From the NCBI GenBank assembly GCA_009908845.1, contig JAAAOQ010000160.1:1-38631 (forward strand): a stretch of 38,631 nucleotides of DNA. The letters are read 5' to 3'. The position numbers were made by a program, and so were the translations under genes. This document shows, in pieces, positions 35,894 to 38,631 of the stretch (position 1 is the first letter of the stretch; each line of letters opens with the position of its first letter). The stretch comes from Gammaproteobacteria bacterium. GTDB lineage: Bacteria; Pseudomonadota; Gammaproteobacteria; Chromatiales; Chromatiaceae. The notes beneath the pieces are model-generated. The model did no database searches, was not told the origin of the DNA, and was given only the letters and a program-made list of their open reading frames with translations.

Positions 35894-35978
<85 letters not shown>

Positions 35979-35993
35979 TTTAGAATCAATGGC

Positions 35994-37106
35994 TTACAAG
36001 CTCCGTAACGCGTCATCTTGCTGGTCCTCTTGTTCAGTGTGACTAGAATGTGACTCATCGAGCGTGTCGACGACCACCCTCAGGTTGTCCGGCGCCAGGT
36101 GGGCATAGCGCTCGGTCATCAGGACCGTGCTGTGCCCGAGCAGGTCACGGATGGTGGCCAGCGGGATGCCCGCCTGCACCAGCCAGGCGGCGCACGTGTG
36201 TCTCAGGTCGTGGAAGGTCAGCTCAGTGATCCCGGCATCGCGGCACGCCTTGTTGAACGCCCCGCGAATGTCATAGGCCGGGTGCCCATCGCGATAGGCG
36301 AACACCCAGGGGCTCGCCGGGCAGTGTTCGGCCCGAAAGCGCGCTCGCCGCAACAGCGCTTCGCGCGTCCTGCTTCCCAGCGGCAAGGCGCGGCGTTTCT
36401 TCGCCTTGGTGTGTCTCGCTTCCAAGTAGATCAGGTTGTTGCGCAGATCGACCCGGTTCCATTCGAGGCCGAGCAGCTCGCCGCGCCGGCATCCGGTATG
36501 CAGGGCCACCGAGATCAGATCGGCGAGAAAAGGCGCTCGCCTGGCCTCCTGTGCCGCCGCGATGAGCGCCTTCGCCTCCTTCTTGGTGATCCAGCGTATG
36601 CGACCCTCGGGCTCCGCCAGCCAGCGTTTGGCGATTGGATTGGGCAGCCGCCAATCCAGATCTCGGTTGACGCAGGTGATCGCGGCCGACAGCAGCGCGA
36701 GCTCGCGGTTGATTGTCGAATCCGACACCCCTTCGATGCGGCGGGCAGTCACGTAGTCGCTGATCTTGGTTGCTGTCACCTCCTGCATGATGCAGCCGGC
36801 GAAGTGTCGGCGCAGCGCAGGGAGCCTGTAGCGGTCGGTCTCACTGCTGCGCTTGACTCCTTTCGATGCCTTGAGATAAGCCACCATCAGGTCCTCGAAG
36901 GTCCGTTCCGGCGGTTGGTCCCATTGCCGCTGTTGCCGCGCCTCGAGCTTCCATTTCGCGAGGAGCGCGGCGGCCTCTGATCGCTCGGTCGTTCCAGTAG
37001 AGCATCTAACTCGGCACTTGCTCGCGTCGATGTATGTCGCCCACCAGTAGGGTGAATTCGGCCGACGATAGAGCCCGTCTTTGTCTTGTCTGCGCTTTTT
37101 CGGCAT
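35994..37106 (-). CDS. Tyrosine-type site-specific integrase
   Basis: C-terminal catalytic motifs HTGCRRGELLGLEW, HDLRHTCAAWLV, LLGHSTVLMTERYAHL; 15 bp from the tRNA-Leu CCA end. Confidence 0.95.
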   Translation of the reverse strand: MPKKRRQDKDGLYRRPNSPYWWATYIDASKCRVRCSTGTTERSEAAALLAKWKLEARQQRQWDQPPERTFEDLMVAYLKASKGVKRSSETDRYRLPALRRHFAGCIMQEVTATKISDYVTARRIEGVSDSTINRELALLSAAITCVNRDLDWRLPNPIAKRWLAEPEGRIRWITKKEAKALIAAAQEARRAPFLADLISVALHTGCRRGELLGLEWNRVDLRNNLIYLEARHTKAKKRRALPLGSRTREALLRRARFRAEHCPASPWVFAYRDGHPAYDIRGAFNKACRDAGITELTFHDLRHTCAAWLVQAGIPLATIRDLLGHSTVLMTERYAHLAPDNLRVVVDTLDESHSSHTEQEDQQDDALRSL

Positions 37107-37327
37107 GTGCTGATCTCCCGCACATCCGGCCCCGCGCAGACCGGATTATGACTCTGAGTGTCTTTATTGTCCACGAACGCCTGCAGGCTCGAGACTTTCA
37201 CGCGCACAGCGCGTCCGATGCGCAGCGGTTGCAGCTCGCCGGCATTGAGCAGACGGCGCACGGTGCGGGTGCTCACCGCGAGCGCGGCGGCGGCCTCATC
37301 CAGAGTCAGGGCGAGCGGCTCAGGCAT
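36887..37327 (-). CDS. Helix-turn-helix (excisionase/MerR-like) protein, putative Xis
   Basis: LTLDEAAAALAVSTRTVRRLLNAGELQPLRIGRAVRVKVSSLQAFVDNK; RBS GGAAGGAGG; C-terminal part overlaps the int start in another frame. Confidence 0.75.
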   Translation of the reverse strand: MPEPLALTLDEAAAALAVSTRTVRRLLNAGELQPLRIGRAVRVKVSSLQAFVDNKDTQSHNPVCAGPDVREISTCRKSADKTKTGSIVGRIHPTGGRHTSTRASAELDALLERPSDQRPPRSSRNGSSRRGNSGNGTNRRNGPSRT

Positions 37328-37745: not shown

Positions 37746-38254
37746 CTAGAACGGGATGTCGTCGTCGAAATCGGCCTGGGCGCTCGGCGCCTGGGCGCGG
37801 AAGTGGGCGGCCTGCGGCTGCTGGGGCTGGTGCGGCGGTGGCTGGTGCCCGGCCTGCGGCGGCTGGTGCGGTGGTGGCGCTGCGGCGGGCGCACTTGGCG
37901 GCGCGGTATAGGCGGGATGCACGCCGGCGGTGGATGGCGCCGCGCGGGCGTTGCTGCTGGCGCCGTCGAGCATGAGCAGATCGCGGACCTGGATCTCGGT
38001 GGTGTAGCGATCGGTACCGCTCTGATCCTGCCACTGGCGGGTGCTGAGCTGGCCGGCGACAAAGACGCGCGAGCCCTTGCGCAGGTATTGCTCGGCGATC
38101 TCGGCAAGCCGGCGCCAGAGTACACAGCGATGCCATTCGGTGCGCTCGCGCGGCTCGCCGCTGGCGCGATCGGTCCAGGCCTCGTTGGGGTGTAGCGGGT
38201 CTCGGGGTCGGCGCCGAGGTGGCCGATCAATTCGACGCGGTTCAGCGAGCGCAT
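37746..38254 (-). pseudogene. ssb: Single-stranded DNA-binding protein, frame-disrupted with internal deletion
   Basis: Frame [24 protein letters not shown]; frame [77 protein letters not shown]...DFDDDIPF*. The expected NGxAVxNxxLAT segment is absent at about 38185-38195. Confidence 0.85.
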
Positions 38255-38342
38255 CGCGCTGTCCTCCTGGTCGTGAGGGCCAGGGCAGCTGACAGGTGGG
38301 GCTGCGCTGGCGGATCGGGTTGGCGGGCCACCTGGGCGGGCC

Positions 38343-38631
38343 TCAGGCGGGCGCTCCGGTTGCGTCCCCGCGCGGCTGTCCCGGTGGACGCTCGGGCGCA
38401 CGCGCGCCGGCCTCACCGGGGCGCGGCGTGCCGGCTTGGCCGTCGGCGCCTTGCAGCTCGGCGGCGAAGCGGGTCAGCCGCGCCATCAGGCGCTCGGCCT
38501 GGGGTGCGCTCAGCTGCTCGAGCGCGGCGCAGCCGAAGACGCGCTGGCACCAGGCGCGCGCGCGCTCGGGGTCGATGGCGTGGGTGCGCAGCTGCTCCTG
38601 CAGGCGGCGCTGCTGCGCCGCGCTGAGGCGC
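38343..38631 (-). CDS. C-terminal fragment of a mobile-element protein, possibly a phage-type recombinase/annealing protein (truncated by window)
   Basis: Read directly: RLSAAQQRRLQEQLRTHAIDPERARAWCQRVFGCAALEQLSAPQAERLMARLTRFAAELQGADGQAGTPRPGEAGARAPERPPGQPRGDATGAPA*; upstream of ssb. Confidence 0.5.
   Translation of the reverse strand, partial: RLSAAQQRRLQEQLRTHAIDPERARAWCQRVFGCAALEQLSAPQAERLMARLTRFAAELQGADGQAGTPRPGEAGARAPERPPGQPRGDATGAPA

Follow-up and report, generated by a model that had tools for sequence, protein, structure and literature searches.

Is the ssb gene near the right end of this contig broken in the living genome, recoded into an unusual SSB, or broken only in the draft assembly? 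The window, that is, the whole 38,631-nt stretch of contig C183 (JAAAOQ010000160.1) analysed here, is chromosomal below position 35978 (mutL, miaA, hflX, hflK/C, purA, fab genes, tmk, holB, tatD). The sequence-only reading had placed the gene on an island, and it does belong to a prophage inserted in tRNA-Leu, with integrase and excisionase genes beside the tRNA and with repeated att ends (Table 1). The 24-nt 3' end of the tRNA-Leu recurs exactly only at C163 (L186):2278-2301, where ARAGORN finds no whole tRNA; next to the repeat lie two HTH genes, one repressor-like and one replication-like, and the site is thus the other attachment end, attR. The att ends lie on two contigs (C183 and C163), and most of the prophage is not on the window contig. 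The variable arm differs between the attachment end at C163:2250-2320 and the window tRNA-Leu (GTGGGGAAACCC against GTGGGTAATCCC). The element is a temperate phage or resembles one, and its early, integrase-proximal end, with the recombination and integration genes, holds ssb. The truncated gene upstream of ssb resembles, with 38% over 66 aa (pairwise E 2e-9), the protein assigned by Pfam ERF on contig C226 (L189) of the same genome.

Table 1. Features of the prophage end carried by the window
Feature	Coordinates	Strand	Basis and remarks
tRNA-Leu, prophage attachment site (attL side)	35894..35978	+	ARAGORN
Tyrosine integrase of the prophage (int)	35994..37106	-	Pfam Phage_integrase 122.7 bits, PHROG 1
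Excisionase-like HTH_17 protein (xis)	36887..37327	-	Overlaps int by ~220 nt; conserved in L034/L114
Small ORF, 89 aa	37320..37589	-	Similar small ORF 3' of ssb in L129 (41% over 83 aa)
ssb 3' part in the other frame, NEAWTD...DFDDDIPF, 146 codons + stop	37746..38186	-	Pfam SSB 79.7 bits, PHROG 44
Lesion, 37 nt absent	38186..38189	-	Alignment with L181, L129, L034; breakpoint ambiguous by 1-2 nt
ssb 5' part, codons 1-22 + one C	38188..38254	-	Alignment with relatives
Shine-Dalgarno-like AGGAGGA	38262..38268	-	7 nt 5' of the ssb ATG (38254); read from sequence
C-terminal tail of a recombination gene upstream of ssb	38343..38631	-	Resembles the C226 ERF tail; cut by contig end

The gene (38254..37746, minus strand) is, as had been proposed, split between two reading frames, with ribosome-binding site and start codon present and the remaining conserved residues continuing in another frame. 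In three island homologues (L181, L129 and L034), T22 is separated from the (N/T)EAW motif by 39 nt (13 residues), whereas 2 nt (CC) remain in the window; the lesion is therefore exactly 37 nt, in agreement with the earlier estimate of a 3n+1 loss of roughly 37 nt. The predicted loss of an OB-fold segment stands as well, with 13 residues affected rather than about 12. Local BLAST against the nearest relative (G197:C116) is also interrupted at the same point (query 313). The 22 residues of the 5' part share 20 with the intact ssb of L129 and 19 with that of L181, and 54-58 of 75 residues after the lesion match these two closest relatives; strong matches on both sides exclude chance similarity of the two parts. 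In the nearest relative the lost segment reads QSGDAVCTLSIAT; it is a core OB-fold stretch, present in all relatives examined, and can be aligned gap-free with solved SSBs such as 7f2n and 3tqy. A six-frame motif scan found no relocated copy of it elsewhere in the window.

What is left of the gene is well preserved, as the sequence-only reading had noted: its differences from relatives are mostly third-position, the motifs are intact on both sides of the lesion, and there is no sign of decay. The downstream frame is a significant match to the Pfam SSB family (PF00436; 79.7 bits against a cut-off of 26), a partial one that covers only ~33-103 of the profile, the N-terminal part of the OB-fold lying in the other frame. 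It ends in the acidic tip of bacterial-type SSBs, ADFDDDIPF, followed by the stop codon.

Alignment with the ssb genes of related prophages, suggested earlier as a check, showed that the lesion is confined to the window copy. The closest homologues, those of G197:C116 (L181), G050:C50 (L129), the Thiohalocapsa MAG contig JAIPFF010000023.1 (L034) and the IMG/VR contig L114, are intact, read in a single frame and retain the 39-nt segment, unlike the window copy, and the gene order ssb ... xis, int is common to the window, L034, L114 and L181. More broadly, every one of the 158 distinct homologues that extend far enough upstream keeps the segment (143 scored by an automatic motif test and 15, with variant motifs, by eye), and none of them carries the lesion. 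A 20-mer from the conserved EWHR region matched many viral ssb genes, all scored ones being intact; among viral contigs sought for the junction, none matched the exact upstream 21-mer. Among the matches listed by a family-wide Pfam scan, all SSBs were near full-length, though weak partial copies may lie beyond them. A plasmid search gave partial matches only, at 60-80% identity, one of them to the Allochromatium vinosum DSM 180 plasmid.

Two further observations concern the neighbouring genes. The overlap of xis and int (36887-37106) has a counterpart of similar length in L034 (7756-7978), and L034 and L114 have xis products 54-56% identical to that of the window, over much of the overlap too; from this conservation, the overlap may be dual-coding. 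The AAA_24 (Sak4-type) protein of L034 (3006-4286) and the C226 ERF protein have similar C-terminal extensions, which suggests a tail domain common to unrelated phage recombinases.

In its intact form, the prophage ssb would normally encode a bacterial-type OB-fold SSB with an acidic tip, serving a recombinase of the ERF/Sak4 type. Phage SSBs pair with their recombinases, and in the Staphylococcus aureus phages 80alpha and phi11 a bacterial-type SSB stands beside a Sak/Sak4/ERF annealing protein (PMC5499656). The window ssb likewise has OB motifs and the acidic DFDDDIPF tip, and the module is similar in its ERF-like gene tail, in the AAA_24 gene that L034 has in its module and in the proximity of xis and int. 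Unlike the modules of 80alpha and phi11, however, the window ssb has a frameshifting 37-nt gap, and the contig ends within the recombinase gene.

The gap itself probably marks an assembly seam, formed where two related prophages made the assembly branch. Contig C226 carries a further prophage recombination module, consisting of ERF, two genes without assignment (by our reading, one for a nuclease and one for a coiled-coil protein), a small gene and ssb. This second ssb (L189:1-62) runs off the contig after ...CGCTACACCC, on the base homologous, within 1-2 nt, to window position 38188, where the lesion begins; over the 67 nt leading up to this shared break the two genes have 79% identity. The assembly has 548 contig ends in 4.16 Mb, so that by chance ~0.002 contig ends would be expected to fall within 2 nt of the lesion site at three other ssb loci, although the coincidence is weaker than this figure suggests, since contig ends may be enriched in prophages. 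The lesion-bearing gene lies only 377 nt from the end of C183, in a draft genome, presumably of the Chromatiaceae, of 274 contigs that is 87.5% complete with 4.4% contamination. Both the shared break base and this position favour a seam. No continuation of the C226 ssb was found elsewhere in the genome, where SSB C-terminal matches occur only on C183, C34 and C52. In L181, a C226-like small gene precedes ssb and window-like xis and int follow it, indicating that the right half of C183 suits either left arm. Farther along C226 (5064-8244), beyond the ERF gene, lie genes for a DprA-like and a radical SAM/B12-binding protein, which could be phage cargo or chromosome.

We infer the following course of events. 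The population would contain two related prophages, or strain variants, whose sequences differ up to ssb codon 22. There the assembler would meet a branch in which either of two left arms could lead into a single right arm; one left arm would have been left as the end of C226, and the other faultily joined to the right-hand part of C183, with the loss of 37 nt. The absence of decay on either side of the gap and the absence of the lesion from all homologues scored fit such a seam. Against it, C183 contains no N and the chromosomal genes checked on it are all whole, so that the assembly is not generally poor, and poor assembly as a blanket explanation finds no support. There is also no visible repeat at the junction long enough to collapse, the microhomology being 1-2 nt at most, and repeat collapse was accordingly rejected; moreover, short-read assemblers do not normally drop 37 nt silently. 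Among the contigs examined, which are part of the assembly, none showed k-mer overlap with the right end of C183, and no common motif was seen at the ends of a sample of 24 contigs. With one clean gap in an otherwise conserved gene, intact copies elsewhere and a contig edge nearby, the locus resembles an ordinary frameshift pseudogene or draft-assembly indel; what sets it apart is the second contig ending at the same homologous base, which ties the lesion to the assembly graph.

Of the causes that the sequence-only reading had offered, a very recent deletion also survives, and it is the C226 end that moves the balance toward a seam. A real 37-nt deletion, which would make the prophage ssb a young pseudogene tolerated because of intact host ssb genes or because selection for prophage replication has ceased, is the next most likely cause, which we hold only tentatively. 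Short deletions of this kind, at 1-2 nt of microhomology, are commonplace, and the undecayed remainder of the gene, with its mostly third-position differences, is what a recent event would leave. The recommended search for an intact ssb elsewhere in the genome found two, on C34 (162 aa) and on C52 (shorter, phage-type), so that the cell does not depend on the island copy. Furthermore, deletion of the phage ssb in 80alpha and phi11 lowers the titre ~100- to 500-fold without abolishing it (PMC5499656), and a lysogen could thus carry such a deletion. A real deletion, however, would make it a coincidence that C226 ends on the homologous base.

The remaining cause offered, a recoded or rearranged but functional SSB, did not hold up and appears very unlikely. 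A -1 shift at the C run (ACC CCA) would bring both parts into frame and yield a shortened, still working SSB, but the two-frame architecture occurs in none of the 158 homologues, no X XXY YYZ heptamer is visible by reading (the junction being only ACC CCA ACG), and the 13 missing residues belong to the core OB segment kept by all relatives. Nor does the downstream frame offer an ATG, GTG or TTG start before 37973, which falls in the disordered tail, while the upstream frame continues past the lesion as unrelated sequence, 235 codons in all. A working SSB is very unlikely to be made from the window sequence, and there is no indication that the gene represents a new type of SSB. Equally improbable is that ssb codons 22-35 are a recurrent break site, for example one targeted by an endonuclease or a site-specific mobile element, so that C226 would be the form interrupted by a repeated insertion and the window would carry the scar of an imprecise loss: this would account for the coincident C226 end, but no interruption or scar occurs there in the 158 homologues, and neither the C226 terminus nor the window shows the end of an element.

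An assembly seam thus being the probable origin of the gap, the locus carries a caution, namely that a clean, conserved-looking frameshift near a contig end can be such a seam, which comparison with the end points of the genome's other contigs can expose. If the deletion is real, the prophage ssb is a further case of prophage gene decay, and the host SSB may stand in for it in part.
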